Assembly: GCF_910596095.1 (NCBI RefSeq)
Contig: NC_056546.1
Span: 12,983,925 to 13,047,924 of the forward strand
Source of the DNA: Thunnus maccoyii
Lineage: Eukaryota > Chordata > Actinopteri > Scombriformes > Scombridae
Direction: 5' to 3'
Length of the DNA stretch: 64,000 nt
Part shown: positions 18,339 through 28,100 of the stretch, one piece after another
Layout: every line of letters starts with the position of its first letter
Position numbering within the stretch: the first letter of the stretch is position 1
Notes under the pieces: generated by a model
The model's input: the letters and a program-made list of their open reading frames with translations, nothing else
Databases searched by the model: none
What the model was told of the DNA's origin: nothing
Translations under genes and position numbers: made by a program

Positions 18339-19312
18339 CTAATGCTTTAACGTAGGAGTATTGGAAGATGCTGGGCAGTTGGTAGCTGCCAGCACTTCCA
18401 GGGTCTCCGAGAGGTGAGAGTCGTGTCGTCCGAACCACATGAACTGCTCCCCTGCCTGTGCCAAAGCTGCCTCTTCAGACTTTCTCTTGTGGTTGCGTGG
18501 GAACCGTCTGGTGTTGGTTGGAACATTAACAGCCTGCTCCACCATGAAGTCAGTCCGGTAGGCCGCGAGGTCCGTCCTGGTGTCTTCAGCACTGCCGTCA
18601 GCTCCATCATGGCAGAGGCAGAAGTGGGAGTTGTGCTGTCTGTAGTCATCAAGACACTTTCTGCGTCCCACACCCTAAGAATTACCAACATGAGAAGATA
18701 CTGTTACAAGGAGTAATGTGGAAGATGTGAACTTTTCAATGTGCTGTCAGACTTGTCTTCATACTCACTTGAGTGAAAACTGTGATATTGTCTTTAAAGG
18801 CACGCTTGTTGTCATGGTCTGAGAATGGATACTCTCTGGACTTCTGTAAAGAAAAACATGGTAGAATTGTATAAAATGAGCAGGTTGTTTCTTTCTTGTG
18901 CTTTGATAGGATGCGATTTAATATTTTAAAAGCTTTCAAAATCATTTGTGACGACTATAATGTGAAAAACAGAAAATGGAAAACTAACAGACATCCCAAG
19001 CTTTACATTATCTACACACACACACACACCTGCTGAGTTTTCCATTTAGGATAGCGCTCAAAGTTTAAAGCCTGAGGCAGTGATGATTTAACCTGAGTCA
19101 GCATGAGCCCAGTGCTTGTACAAGTCTCTCGATTCCTTGTCTCATTTCTTGGTAAATCTGGATGAGCAAACTGAAAAGAAAATTTAAGGAAAACTAATTA
19201 CATGGTCAGCTTTAAATGTAAAGATTTTTATTTGTATGTGATCAAATTAAGAATTTCTTACCCATTTGCAATCATTGCTCATTGAAAAATAACGCTTTCC
19301 TCCTTTAACCAT
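18339..19312 (-). CDS. TEX36: TEX36 (testis-expressed protein 36), 4 exons, complete
   Basis: Minus-strand exons in transcript order: 19312-19262, 19170-19030, 18843-18769, 18674-18339. All junctions are GT-AG, all introns are phase 0, and the joined frame is 603 nt (200 aa). The start MVKGGKRYFS corresponds to the MTKGRRF start of human TEX36. Exon 2 opens FAHPDLPRNET. Exon 3 has REYPFSDHDNKRAF, equivalent to the NQFPFSVHDNRHSL box of the family. Exon 4 has GVGRRKCLDDYRQH and RRFPRNHKRKSEE, matching the GLGRKK...RQH and RRFPRCYKE boxes. Human TEX36 is 186 aa. The gene lies beside EDRF1 in mammals, which supports orthology. Its molecular role is not established; mammalian expression is testis-biased. 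No domain of known fold, signal peptide or membrane segment is visible. Confidence 0.85.
19016..19029 (+). repeat. short CA tract at TEX36 intron 2 donor
   Basis: Seven CA units abut the exon 2 donor, so on the minus strand the intron begins GTGTGTGTG. Length changes here could weaken the splice site. Confidence 0.6.
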
Positions 19313-21275
19313 TTTAAGAAAGTTTGAAATTTTGGTCCAGTGAGTTCTCTGAGTAGTTTCACCAATACACCACACACACAGAGAGAGAAAGAGAGAGAGG
19401 CTAACTTAACAACTAATGCAAACACTGGTGACTATGGTAACATGCTGCAAACAAACAACCTGAAATGTGATCTCAATTTGCCATGGAGACTTAGAACTAG
19501 AATTCTGAGAGTAAAAGAAAAAAAACAACTTTAAATATTTGTGAATTATACTGCAAACCATACAAATAAATCACAAAAAACAAAGTAATCATTTAATATT
19601 AAATTACAACCAATAAATTATCTAAATGTACAATTGTCCTTTTTTTTTGTTCATGTCGAGACTTGTTAACTAAAAAATAAATAAATAAGACAGTTTTTGT
19701 TCAGATCTGAAGCCAAAGTGGCGTTAAATTGATGAGGCTCCCCAGTGTTGTCATGCGTTTGAAAATGACAATGAGCACAGATTTGTTTGCAGTCAGTAAA
19801 GGTGATATCTGATGGATGACACAGTGACAGAGAGGCTACTCAATTAAAAATAAACCACAACAGAACAAATCCCTCAGAGAGCACAAAATTAGCACATAAG
19901 TGACTTTATTTTCCACAACACTTGATATAGAAAAAAAACAACACAATTACATATCTTTATCTGGGACAGAGTACATGCAGGTTTTTCCATTTTAATAAGA
20001 AATGTTCATGATTCAAAAGTTTATTTTAAAACATGTTAAAAAAGTAATCTTTAAAAGGTCCCAGATTAATACATTTTCAGTTTCCTTTACAAAAGACTAC
20101 AGCCTAGGAATTAAAAATGCTTCATGTTATTTTTTTTTGCAAAGAAACAAAGTTAAAAGGTGGAATTAACACATAATCATCACTAATACTGAGCCTTGAC
20201 TGTTTATATGAAATGTACCGACTTTAAAATTCTTTAGTGAGAGGTGTCAGTCAGGACAATGTCCAGATGTGATAAGTTAACTGCAGCGTAATTTGACATT
20301 TCTTGTGTAAAGGATGACTTTAATTAAAGCAGTAAACGTAAATTAGGCACTGTAACAAAATCTAAATTAAACAATATATTTGAAGAATATAGTGAATCTT
20401 TAAATTTTTTAAATTATAAAAAAAACCCAGAGACAAATATGAACAAAAAACAATTTGTCCTAAGAGTCATTCCTTGGTCATTGTTCTGGTGTCACAGGTG
20501 GGCAATTAAGTTTTTAAACTTCAAGCGAGGGGAAATGGACCGAGAGGTAATCGTACTGTGAATTGTCGTCTCTGGGATCCCATAAAGTTATTAGACTTTT
20601 TCCACAGCTGGGACATGATTGTGTTCTGCGTGTCCCTAGTGGATATCTGTTGTACTATTGATCCCTGTGAACAAGTAGGACATGACAACAAAGACGAACT
20701 AAATGTTTTAAGTTACATACAACATATGTACATCTTAAGAGGGTGCCATCTATTCCTTCTATGAAATATTAATTTGAGGTACTTGACAATCAGGTTGAAG
20801 CAGCAATAAATGGCTGCCTCCTCATGTGATTAAATATGTGTTCATAGTCCAGTACCAGTTCCAGTGTATATGGTTTTAGTCTTAAATATTATGTTATAAT
20901 GACCAGACTGAGGGGGTCAAACCTGAAGGCTGAACCTTGGTATACGGTGCACTTGATGATCACTTTGGCGATTGGCTTCAAGATGTCTTCTGGTATTATT
21001 TTCTGTATGCTGAGTTCTTTTATGAAGGCTAAACAGGCCTTGTTGATCATATTATCTCATTATCACATTAAGATGTTTTTGTCTTGATCTCATCAACTAC
21101 ACCTTCTTAATGAAGAAGGCCATGAGGACCGTCTTGATGAAGACCCTTGGTGTCTTGTTGACCTTACTGTCAAGCCTATGAGGATCCATGTTTGCAGCAT
21201 TGAAGTTCAATAATGGTATCAAATGAAGATGCAGCCATTTGTTTGCACCCACAGTACTCCATTATGCTTTAATAC
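19313..21275. other. spacer between TEX36 and the ATG16-like gene, likely holding its 3' UTR
   Basis: No supported exon. The high-coordinate part is probably the 3' UTR of the minus-strand ATG16-like gene. AT-rich with A-runs and AAATAAATAAATAA near 19675-19686. The sub-region 20890-21195 keeps short coding-like frames on the minus strand, listed separately. Confidence 0.4.
20890..21195 (-). pseudogene. unidentified coding-like stretch, possible gene fragment
   Basis: On the minus strand, 21195-21111 reads MDPHRLDSKVNKTPRVFIKT then VLMAFFIKKV before a stop. Nearby, 21055-20899 reads MINKACLAFIKELSIQKIIP, EDILKPIAKVI, then TVYQGSAFRFDPLS. These frames have protein-like composition but are interrupted, and I recognise no family. 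They may be a decayed gene piece within the 3' flank of the ATG16-like gene, or chance. Low confidence. Confidence 0.2.
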
Positions 21276-22757
21276 TTAGAAGACTGGAGACGTTTTTGTT
21301 GTACCACTCAAAGAGCTGGTCTCTATGGGATCATAACCTGGTGCCATCTCCTTGTGGAGGTGCTTCTTCAATTGTTTGGCTAAACGTTGCCACCTGAAAA
21401 AAAGCAGTCATCACTGACAGTTTACAATCTCCAAAATGTGGTGCTTGTGGGTGATTAAAGCAAGTGCTTTTTTGAGCTTTATAGGTGATTCAGAGATCAC
21501 ACGTTCACTTCTCTTACCTTTCCTGAGTGTCATTGTACTTGTTCAGTCTGTCTGCCTCCTCCCTCTTCTCCTCCATCCATCGTTGCAAGAGTTCTTCTTT
21601 CTCTTTCCAAGCTTGTGCTGCTGCTTCTTTTAGTTCTTTCTGCTCCACATGCAGAGCTGCCAGCTCTTTGCATTGACACTCTATGGTGAACTCATATTCG
21701 GAAAGGGTCGCCTTCAGGGTTTTACTCCCTTTAGCCAGAGTAAGTGCCTCTTGGCGGTGACGGGAAACACTGAAACACACGAGAAATTTAATGATTTATC
21801 GTAATTTTGATCACCTTCTGGTGTTACTTCAAACTACTTCATACATTCATCCACCACACACCTTATAGAGTTTGGATTTTAGGTCACAAGTCACTGCTAT
21901 CTAATAGGTAGATACTGTAAACTGTGACCCAACAACACATAGGCCTACAAGCTAATATTTATTTGTGATTCAGGATTATACTCAGTTTTGTTATGAGAGT
22001 TCACTCTGATGGTTACCGTGACTGCCAGTATTGCAGTTCAGCCTCTTTCAAATACAGGACAGTGGTCAAGTCGGAGACAGTCTGAGACAGCTGTGGAGAC
22101 AAACAGTAGAGGATGGATTGATTGAGGATTGCACTAGATCAAAGGTCACTCTTGCACACATACACACCACTATGTCCTAATTAACACAGCAAGAATATTT
22201 TGACAAGAGATACAGTGTTGTTTGAGGTTAAATATTTGTGCTACTGTGTAAACTCTTGTATTGTTTTTTATAACCTGCAATCTCTCCTACAGTATGGTGG
22301 GAGGCTGATACAAGTTATTTTGTGTCTATTACTGAATTTCTCACCTTTTCTGCCAGATGTTCACTTTCTCTTAGCTGGAGTTGAAGGAGGCTTGTGTTTT
22401 TCCCAGCTTCAACTCCACCTCGCTCTAAACTGAAGTAAAAGGCAGTGTATAGTTTTATGATGCAAAAACCAAGCATTGAACACAGCTTTAAATGTGAAGT
22501 GAAATTCTGCTTTTCTGACCTCTTAGTCTGGACATCTTCTAAAATTTGTTTGCGAATTTCAAAACGCTCTTCCAACTGAGACACTGAAAGAAAACAGATT
22601 TGTCAGATGCCCTTGGGGTTAGTCAGAGGAGATGCATCATCGTTGCAAAACAGAAAACATTAATCTTACAGCTTGTGAAGACGCCAGCGTATGGGACTTT
22701 CTCTCTTTGGTCTCTGTTTTGCAGTTGACCGCGCACGTGATTCTTCCAGCTTCCCAT
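21276..22757 (-). CDS. ATG16-like protein lacking WD40 repeats, 6 exons, complete
   Basis: Exons on the minus strand: 22757-22670, 22583-22520, 22429-22345, 22090-22017, 21769-21518, 21393-21276. All junctions are GT-AG, phases are consistent, and the joined frame is 681 nt (226 aa). Residues 4-20 (WKNHVRGQLQNRDQREK) match the ATG5-binding helix of ATG16L1 (WKRHISEQLRRRD). Residues about 40-180 are heptad-rich coiled coil. LLQRWMEEKREEADRLN matches the ATG16L1 segment VTRWMAEKAQEANRLN, used for WIPI2 binding, with acidic residues kept at the two key positions. The protein ends 35 residues later with TKTSPVF, so there is no WD40 propeller; in length and layout it resembles yeast Atg16 more than ATG16L1. 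Predicted role: scaffold of an ATG12-ATG5 ligase complex. The start has A at -3 and G at +4; an in-frame ATG at 22823 would add 22 residues. I know of no human gene at this locus. Confidence 0.8.
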
Positions 22758-25189: not shown

Positions 25190-28100
25190 ATGAGCGCATC
25201 AGCTGCGGACAGAGAGCCTGGGATCCCCTTGGATAATGCAAAGGAGGAAATCAGTGAGCCCATCTGCACAGGAGAGAGCAGCAAGCATGTAAGTAGACAG
25301 AAGATGGATTGATGGATGGACTTTATTGATCCCAAATTGGGAAATTCTTGTGTTACAGCAGCAGGTTATCCAGACGTTGCACGGGAACTTTCAATATACA
25401 TATCAACACTAGAAGAGAGAAATGTATATCTATAGGAAAAGAAACACAACATACACTATAAATATAAACATAGGACAACATACTACATACATTAGACAAG
25501 TGTGCAAAGTTGTGGAAGTTTTAGACATGCAATGAGGTAGAGTAGGAGTATAAAGATGTGCAAATTCACCATGAGCAAAGTTATTGAAAGAGCAAAACAG
25601 TGGAATTTGGTTGAGACAGAAACTACAAAGCTGTTAAACAGAGGTGAGGTGTTGTGGAGAGTAATTGCTTTGGGCAGGAAAGATTTCCTGTATCTGTCCT
25701 TGTGACAGTGAAGCTGAACTAGGCTGTTACAGAAAGTGCTCCACTGTCTGTCCAGTAGGCGGTGGAGAGGGTGGTCAATATTATCCATAATAGATAACAG
25801 TTTGTTCAGCGTCCTCCTGTCCACCACAACTTTAGAGGTGTCTGGTTTGCAGCCAATTATGGAGCCGGCCTTCTTACTCAGTTTGTCTGTTGGTGTCACC
25901 ATCTCCAATACTGCTCCCCCAGCAGACTACAGTGAAGTACAGTGCATTGGCAACAACAGAGTGGTGGAAGATTTCCAACATCTTGTTGCACGCATTAAAG
26001 GATCTCAGCTTCCTCAGGAAATGGAGTCTGCTCATCCCCTTCCTATATACGGCCTCGATGTTGGTCTTCCAGTTCAGTCTGCTCTCAATGTGGACACCCA
26101 GGTACTTGTAGTCCTCCACCTGGTCACCATCCTCTCCCAGAGTACACAGGGGTTGTATAGACGTCCTCTTCCTTCTGAAGTCGATCACCATCTCCCTGGT
26201 CTCTGTCATGTTCAGGAGCAGAGGGTTTCATCCAGACCATTCCACAAAATCGTCTACCGGTGCTCTGTACTCCTCCTTCCGCCCGTCACTTATACACCCA
26301 ACCATTACAGAGTTGTCAGAGAAGTTCTGCAAGTGGCATGACCTGGAGTTGTATTGAAAGTCTGAGGTCTACAAAGTGAAAAGGAAGGGAGACAGTGCAG
26401 TCCCCTATGGAGCATCTGTACAGAGACAGAGCACTGCCTGGTCAGACAAACCCCAAACTGCAGTCTGCCTGTCAGGTTGTCGGTGATCCAGGAGATGGTG
26501 GACATGTCTACCTTCATCTCTTGCAGCTTCTCTCTCAGTAGCAGTGGCTGGATGGTGTTGAATGCACTGGAGAAATCAAAGAATGTGATTCTCACAGTGC
26601 AACCAGTTCCATCCAGGTGTGAATGAGCTTGCTGCAGCAGGCAGATGATGGCATCATCCACTCTCATATGAGGTTGGTAGGCAAACTGCAGAGGGTTCAG
26701 CGATGATTTCATCTGTGGTCTAAAGTGGGCCAAGACCAGCCTCTCACCTTCACCCGCCTTCATCACATGAGATGTGAGGGCAACTGGTCGATAGTCGCTG
26801 AAGCCAGATGGTGTTGTCTTCTTGGAAACAGGAACCAGGCAGGATGTCCTCCACAGCACTGGTATCTTCTCCTGGTAAAGGCTCAGGTTGAAGAGGTGTC
26901 GCAGAATAGCAGATAGCTAGCTGGCGCAGGTCCTCAGAACCCTGGGGCTGATACCGTCAGGGCCCGCAGCCTTGCCTCTCTGGAGTCTCTCCAGCTGTCT
27001 CCTAACCTGGCCAGGTTTGGGACCAAGGAGCTCATCAAGGAGGATTAAGGGGGGAAGGGTGAAAGCATTGTGGGCATTGTGGAGGTCTGGGTGTGCGGTG
27101 GTTTCGTGGAGGAGACAGCTGAGGGCTGTGAACTTAAGTCTTTTTAATGTCAAAGTCCCTCTTTTTGTAACTATGTTTCCACCACAGCTCAACAGGGAAA
27201 CACTGTCAGAGGAAACACAGGGGGAATTTTATGCTAAAAAGACTGTAAATGTGGCAGATATCCACTTGATATGACTCAGACTGCTCAATGCTGAAGCCTC
27301 ATATAAGCTCCAGATAAACTTTTAAAGAGGACATTGTAGAAAGGGAGCTTTCCATTTCTTTTTTGATTATGAAGCAGGTCTAGGTGCTATATAAATAGCC
27401 TACTGTACTGCGAAAGTATCAAAATGCTCAGTCCACTGAGAAATGCACACAGCCCATATTCAGAAACTGTGCCTTTAAACAAGCTGTTTGGACTTCTGTA
27501 ACGTTGTGATGTTTCAACTATACTCTCAGTGTTTCCCCCACCATTGCTTATGGGACTCCCCGCCCCTCCTGAAAGAAACAAAATATGTTTATTTATGGTA
27601 TTTACCTCATTTATGTGCCCTCGTTTCTTTTCAGCTCAGTGTGAGAGTCTACTGCGTTTTGCTGTTATTTATGGTCTCACTAGTTTCTCTACTCTGCTCT
27701 CTGTGTTTCACCGACCGTTACCTGTGGCTGGCTCGGGCGTGCGTCACATCAAATAGACCATGAAAATGAAAATATTAAACTGGGAAAGGGGCATAGTATG
27801 ACCTCTTTAAATGCATTTTTGTGGATTTTGGCCTCCATCACTTACATTGAAAACACATTTCAAGCGGATCTTTTAATAGCCAGTATGAACAGGAGGAATA
27901 ATAACAGTAGAAAAACCTCTTTCAGTGTCCACATGGGTACCTGACTGTTGTTTTAAGACAGACTTGAAAAATTGGAAACCTATACTTTAAATATGACCCT
28001 CAATCAATACTTCCTGGTTATACTCACTAATTTGGCACTTTGTTTTGTTATTTTGTAGGACTCGGCCTTATGTTCAGGCAACAGTGAAATAAAGAGCCGT

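Follow-up and report, generated by a model that had tools for sequence, protein, structure and literature searches.

A locus on C14 of the 782-Mb Thunnus maccoyii genome raises the question of whether this fish carries an ATG16 gene that is distinct from both ATG16L1 and ATG16L2. The window, that is the whole 64-kb stretch of DNA analyzed here (C14:12983925-13047924), had been described in a sequence-only reading as holding an ATG16-like gene without WD40 repeats beside EDRF1. Duplicated ATG genes of vertebrates were surveyed in 2026 across 30 chordates and 5 outgroups; that survey treats ATG16 as the pair ATG16L1/ATG16L2 (PMC13020874), and the portion of its text available to us makes no mention of a third ATG16 gene; this survey dropped some short sequences and omits events confined to one species (PMC13020874). 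Zebrafish atg16l1 is listed in PMC3060341. Our literature search by name and topic gave no paper on a third ATG16 gene, though fish-database annotation may nevertheless exist, and the sole occurrence of the name ATG16L3 that it returned is a chain label in PMC8496732.

The gene consists of six exons on the minus strand, which are joined into 681 nt comprising 226 codons and a stop codon in an intact frame (Table 1). Its splice sites were picked by hand; each of the five introns has GT-AG ends, and aaaATGg surrounds the start codon. The gene as observed at this place was confirmed to be real. The coordinates, exon count and frame given by the sequence-only reading were correct and the peptides that it quoted were found in the product, while the stop codon, said to follow RWMEEKREEADRLN after 35 residues, actually follows it after 46 (N180 to F226). 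When the flanking DNA was scanned for two poly(A) hexamers, the nearest hexamer, ATTAAA, was located 2 nt past the stop codon and the next ones about 950 and 1250 nt off. EDRF1 lies to the right on the plus strand, as identified by Pfam EDRF1_N and TPR_EDRF1 matches, and a gene with a helicase-associated HA2 domain lies farther right, past EDRF1. The next gene on the strand of the ATG16-like gene is an HDNR-domain frame at 18339-18674, which we take to be TEX36.

Table 1. Exons of the ATG16-like gene, numbered by position in the window, with their contents and their comparison with other ATG16L genes.
Exon	Position	Strand	Length	Content	Basis or comparison
1	22670..22757	-	88 nt	Start codon, then putative ATG5-binding helix SWKNHVRGQLQNRD (W4, V8, L12, R15)	Following intron equals the first ATG16L1 intron in codon and phase (1)
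2	22520..22583	-	64 nt	Second helix / start of linker	Phase 2 as in ATG16L1 exon B; intron displaced by 8 codons in the alignment blind to introns
3	22345..22429	-	85 nt	Putative coiled-coil part begins	Following intron matches that of ATG16L1 in codon and phase (0)
4	22017..22090	-	74 nt	Coiled coil	Length equals that of the matching exon in ATG16L1 and ATG16L2 of the same genome
5	21518..21769	-	252 nt	Putative coiled coil, with the RAB33B-site segment E160...RWMEEKREEADRLN...N183 at its end	252 nt in ATG16L2 and 70+182 nt in ATG16L1 of the same fish genome
6	21276..21393	-	118 nt	Counterpart of the WIPI2 region, followed by a 20-residue tail (G207 onward) and stop codon TAA	L192 and L196 kept; E226 position is K198

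Two further observations were made in this neighborhood. Just 3' of the stop codon, at 20889-21261 on the minus strand, there are coding-looking frames such as ANMDPHRLDSKVNKTPRVFIKTVLMAFFIKKV; two of them were sent to Pfam and had no match, and a whole-genome search with window DNA 19950-21275 and one 54-aa frame found no second copy. A reverse-transcriptase fragment (RVT_1, E 2.6e-7) was also located at 26308-26916 on the minus strand, left of the match to the EDRF1 N-terminal domain, and is probably an old retroelement inside an intron.

The product was then assigned to a family. The Pfam ATG16 profile (PF08614), which the sequence-only reading had proposed as a check, matched residues 9-180 at E 3.8e-9; its 37.5 bits exceed the cut-off of 33.7, and six other Pfam families all stayed under their own cut-offs (E >= 0.035). 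The product matched five PDB sequences (E up to 10). Four of these are ATG16 proteins, ranging from ATG16L1 (E 1.2e-7) to a weak match with the yeast-type Atg16 6rgo (E 0.056), and the remaining one is a designed protein (E 1.3). Local alignment to residues 1-250 of human ATG16L1 scored 188, compared with a maximum of 79 for 500 shuffles of the product, and alignment to human ATG16L2, for which a provisional sequence was used, scored 115 against a shuffle maximum of 76. A chance coiled-coil match is ruled out by the PDB ATG16 matches and by the alignment score above the shuffles.

When the genome was scanned with the ATG16 profile, three places were obtained: one on C6 (1.0e-14), the gene in the window (1.9e-5; 33.5 bits from exon 5 on its own, 33.8 once neighboring exons are added) and one on C1 (7.9e-4, under cut-off). 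The same search on 14 control genomes gave matches in six, none above cut-off. The C1 match falls in a 449-aa open frame (C1:34,779,207-34,779,470), probably an unrelated coiled-coil protein. ATG16L1 of the fish was located on C6 at about 33.85-33.87 Mb, where tblastn pieces in 40 kb span 593 of the 607 residues of human ATG16L1, including the WD40 domain. An ATG16L2-like gene lies on C6 at about 34.81-34.82 Mb (about 34.811-34.819) and best matches the provisional human ATG16L2, though within 30 kb the matches to its WD40 exons reach no farther than about residue 491 of that protein, and no convincing exon for the rest was found in the 11 kb beyond (about 34.800-34.811 Mb). This may reflect a propeller that is shortened or strongly diverged, or else a fault in the assembly. 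Ahead of the ATG5 helix of this fish ATG16L2, at C6 about 34.8186-34.8189 Mb, we also observed a repetitive Gly/Pro/Arg/Ser-rich frame of at least about 80 residues, whose units are GRSPGPGG/GRSPAPGG-like. Searching the genome with the 226-aa product gave, among the best candidates scored, seven matches, which are its own six exons and ATG16L1 (E 0.086), with no second copy of the gene. Conversely, none of the 34 genome matches listed for human ATG16L1 (E up to 0.01) lies on C14, so the gene in the window is not among them. The ATG16-family gene beside EDRF1 is borne out as separate from ATG16L1 and ATG16L2.

Functional sites were examined by comparison with ATG16L1. Its ATG5-interacting motif consists of W13, I17, L21, R24 and Q28 (PMC6769624), which pair with W4, V8, L12, R15 and E19 of the product, three of the five being identical; within helix 28-44, F32, I35 and I36 pair with Y23, V26 and F27. 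The family has a parallel dimeric coiled coil; over ATG16L1 positions 105-206, judged from sequence only, heptad a/d positions are hydrophobic at 20 of 29 in the product and 21 of 29 in human ATG16L1, and non-a/d positions at 21 of 73 and 19 of 73, respectively. The product shows the helix and heptad patterns of the putative ATG5-binding helix and coiled coil that had been described. The RAB33B site of ATG16L1 is E186-N206 (PMC7395093, PMC8496732), and we scored it over 186-209 at E186, V191, R193, W194, E197, K198, E201, A202, L205, N206 and N209. By residue identity the putative site of the product is conserved, as 10 of these 11 residues equal those of human ATG16L1 and the only change is V191 to L. 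Fish ATG16L1 keeps 10 of the 11 (E186 is D), the provisional human ATG16L2 keeps 6, and fish ATG16L2 keeps 4, departing at E186, V191, R193, W194, E197, E201 and L205. Human ATG16L2 does not bind RAB33B, and single mutation of K198, A202 or N206 in ATG16L1 abolishes this binding (PMC7395093). The provisional human ATG16L2 retains these three residues among its six; its failure to bind therefore indicates that a partial site is insufficient for binding. W194, E197, E201 and L205 are the residues that distinguish the gene in the window from the provisional human ATG16L2. Among the PI3P residues of ATG16L1, I171 is V and R193 is kept, and the lipid-contact residue K179 is A153.

The segment RWMEEKREEADRLN had been taken for the WIPI2-binding one, but it matches R193-N206 of ATG16L1, which is the RAB33B site (PMC7395093, PMC8496732). 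The WIPI2 site itself is ATG16L1 207-230 (PMC4104028, PMC8455133), of which either E226R or E230R abolishes WIPI2b binding in the human protein (PMC4104028). Here L220 and L224 of ATG16L1 align with L192 and L196 of the product, E226 aligns with K198, and pairing E230 with E203 needs a one-residue insertion; fish ATG16L1 has D226 and E230. Judged by this alignment, the true WIPI2 region of the gene is altered. The acidic FIP200 stretch (ATG16L1 235-241) is missing from the product, whose tail is GYDPIETSSLSGTTKTSPVF. When the C-terminal 60 residues were searched against viral contigs, 36 pattern matches were obtained and none was confirmed. The absence of WD40 repeats had also been noted, and tblastn of the 64-kb window found no WD40 exon at E < 1 (best E 1.2), whereas WD40 queries matched the control locus of ATG16L1 on C6 down to E 2.8e-24. 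Hidden downstream WD40 exons were rejected, as the tblastn search of the window found none and no listed genome match of human ATG16L1 lies on C14; the next gene on this strand is the one with the HDNR domain.

The descent of this gene was examined through its intron structure. The first seven exons of fish ATG16L1 are 106, 94, 106, 74, 70, 182 and 66 nt long and end in phases 1, 2, 0, 2, 0, 2 and 2; the introns of the gene in the window have phases 1, 2, 0, 2 and 2. In an intron-blind alignment of the two, where 61 of 208 aligned residues are identical, four of the five introns match in codon and phase, and the fifth agrees in phase and falls inside a gapped part of the alignment. Exons 4 and 5 are equal in length and place to those of fish ATG16L2. 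The shared introns and exon lengths therefore make the gene a DNA-level third ATG16L paralog, and a retrocopy origin is ruled out by the introns common to it and ATG16L1. By this structure, the gene is an intact old duplicate within the vertebrate ATG16L lineage. Since 252 nt equals the 70+182 nt of fish ATG16L1, a single exon is probably the ancestral state. The codons after E230 of mouse Atg16l1 lie in exon 6 (PMC6526875), a placement that would agree with one undivided coiled-coil exon in mouse. As for fish ATG16L1 itself, its 252-nt coiled-coil exon is split into 70 + 182 nt by an intron (C6:33,857,733-33,860,031) that looks like an intron gain, and the acceptor of the 70-nt exon is an unusual TTTTTTGAG. 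The absence of this intron from the gene in the window and from ATG16L2 fits a split of the gene before the intron arose, or its later loss.

Descent was also examined with an unrooted tree of five sequences over 136 ungapped residues, in which the human ATG16L2 sequence was again the provisional one. The two ATG16L2s group with a support of 98 and the two ATG16L1s with 44, and the branch leading to the gene in the window measures 1.96 substitutions per site. This gene is placed equally well beside both ATG16L1s (a placement that covers a third independent line), beside human ATG16L1 or beside fish ATG16L1, and its identity to fish ATG16L1 is 28% (38 of the 136 residues). The 74- and 252-nt exons, together with the incomplete WD40 match of the C6 gene, might suggest that the gene is the fish ATG16L2 ortholog after WD40 loss. 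This is very improbable, as the separate C6 gene best fits the provisional human ATG16L2 and has WD40 exons, and the RAB33B site of the gene in the window is ATG16L1-like. In the same five-sequence tree, the AU test rejects its placement with ATG16L2 (p 0.047 for human, 0.012 for fish), although the SH test leaves it standing (0.072 and 0.064). This identity was largely refuted by the separate C6 gene, the AU test and the RAB33B-site residues. Improbable too, though less so, is a decaying or unexpressed remnant without function, for which one may cite the poor poly(A) context and the long branch, which could mean relaxed constraint. Against it, the 226-codon frame and the five splice pairs have stayed intact at 28% identity to fish ATG16L1, where an unconstrained frame would carry about nine stops. 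Neutral simulation of ATG16L1 frames, made with point changes only and without indels, left 0 of 2000 open at 31% identity and 0.4% open at 65%. It is only from this intactness that we infer purifying selection on the gene.

We favor, with moderate confidence, a third ATG16L paralog that codes for protein and is cut short in exon 6. Its product may serve as a minimal LC3-ligase subunit at RAB33 membranes and may modulate ATG16L1 or compete with it. The gene would have arisen when an ATG16L gene with introns was duplicated, and the stop in exon 6 would account for the missing linker, FIP200 site and WD40 propeller. The product would be an ATG5-binding dimer that is recruited chiefly by RAB33, with a doubtful input from WIPI2 and none through FIP200 or WD40, and at RAB33 membranes it may perform LC3 lipidation or restrain ATG16L1. 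The contact sites that survive in its residues suggest that the product connects the enzyme that attaches LC3 with RAB33 membranes. More tentatively, and as a conjecture we hold for possible rather than probable, some fish may keep a third ATG16L, overlooked in surveys of duplicated ATG genes, as a WD40-free and FIP200-free ATG12-ATG5 adaptor that is almost RAB33-only, providing either a line from RAB33 to LC3 conjugation or a brake on ATG16L1.

Two other functions have to be weighed against this truncated RAB33-directed paralog; all of these readings, including those on descent and decay, overlap, and the confidences given to them sum to other than one. The sequence-only reading had proposed a form for canonical autophagy only, namely an Atg16 of yeast type or a naturally arisen equivalent of the E230 truncation in mouse. 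Its domain content is indeed that of ATG16L1 1-230, and mice with ATG16L1 stopping after E230 keep canonical autophagy (PMC6526875). However, the lysine at the E226 position and the loss of the FIP200 acidic stretch make such support less safe, K179 is replaced by alanine, and fish ATG16L1 is already there for the canonical job. We regard this function as rather unlikely; a form directed by RAB33, or one that competes with ATG16L1 as the earlier reading also allowed, is the better fit. An inhibitory ATG16, judged from its residues, is doubtful but somewhat more credible: it would bind ATG12-ATG5 or heterodimerize with ATG16L1, park the ligase at RAB33 membranes and dampen autophagy, perhaps in one tissue. 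K198 and the missing FIP200 stretch would suit this role, given the effect of E226R or E230R on human WIPI2b binding (PMC4104028). Against it, the WIPI2-interface leucines L220 and L224 are kept and E203 is alignable with E230, and RAB33B by itself is a high-affinity partner of ATG16L1 in the absence of WIPI2B, though starvation autophagy needs both interactions (PMC8496732).

Compared with known proteins, the gene resembles fish and human ATG16L1 in its putative N-terminal ATG5 helix and coiled coil, its RAB33B-site residues, and its intron positions and phases. In contrast, ATG16L1 possesses the FIP200 site, the linker, the WD40 exons and the WIPI2 site, and in the fish one extra intron. Fish ATG16L2 resembles it in the N-terminal helix and coiled coil, as judged from sequence, and in the two exon lengths, but has WD40 exons, partly matched, and a RAB33B site that differs at the seven residues listed above. 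Yeast Atg16 is similarly short and WD40-free, with the kind of ATG5 helix and dimeric coiled coil predicted for the product, but its PROPPIN site lies within the coiled coil (PMC10688262); unlike yeast Atg16, the gene belongs by its introns to the vertebrate ATG16L genes and would have lost its WD40 part secondarily. The mouse Atg16l1 E230 allele likewise truncates the protein where the coiled coil ends, before the linker and WD40, in exon 6, where E226 and E230 are encoded (PMC6526875), but is engineered and keeps both E226 and E230. The functions of ATG16L1 have been separated in mice through engineered truncation. A natural gene with the ATG5 helix and RAB33B site, an altered WIPI2 site, and neither the FIP200 site nor WD40 would show that evolution has separated them similarly, and it would allow the RAB33B route to be tested apart from the WIPI2 route. 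The gene also bears on the accepted count of two ATG16 genes in vertebrates.
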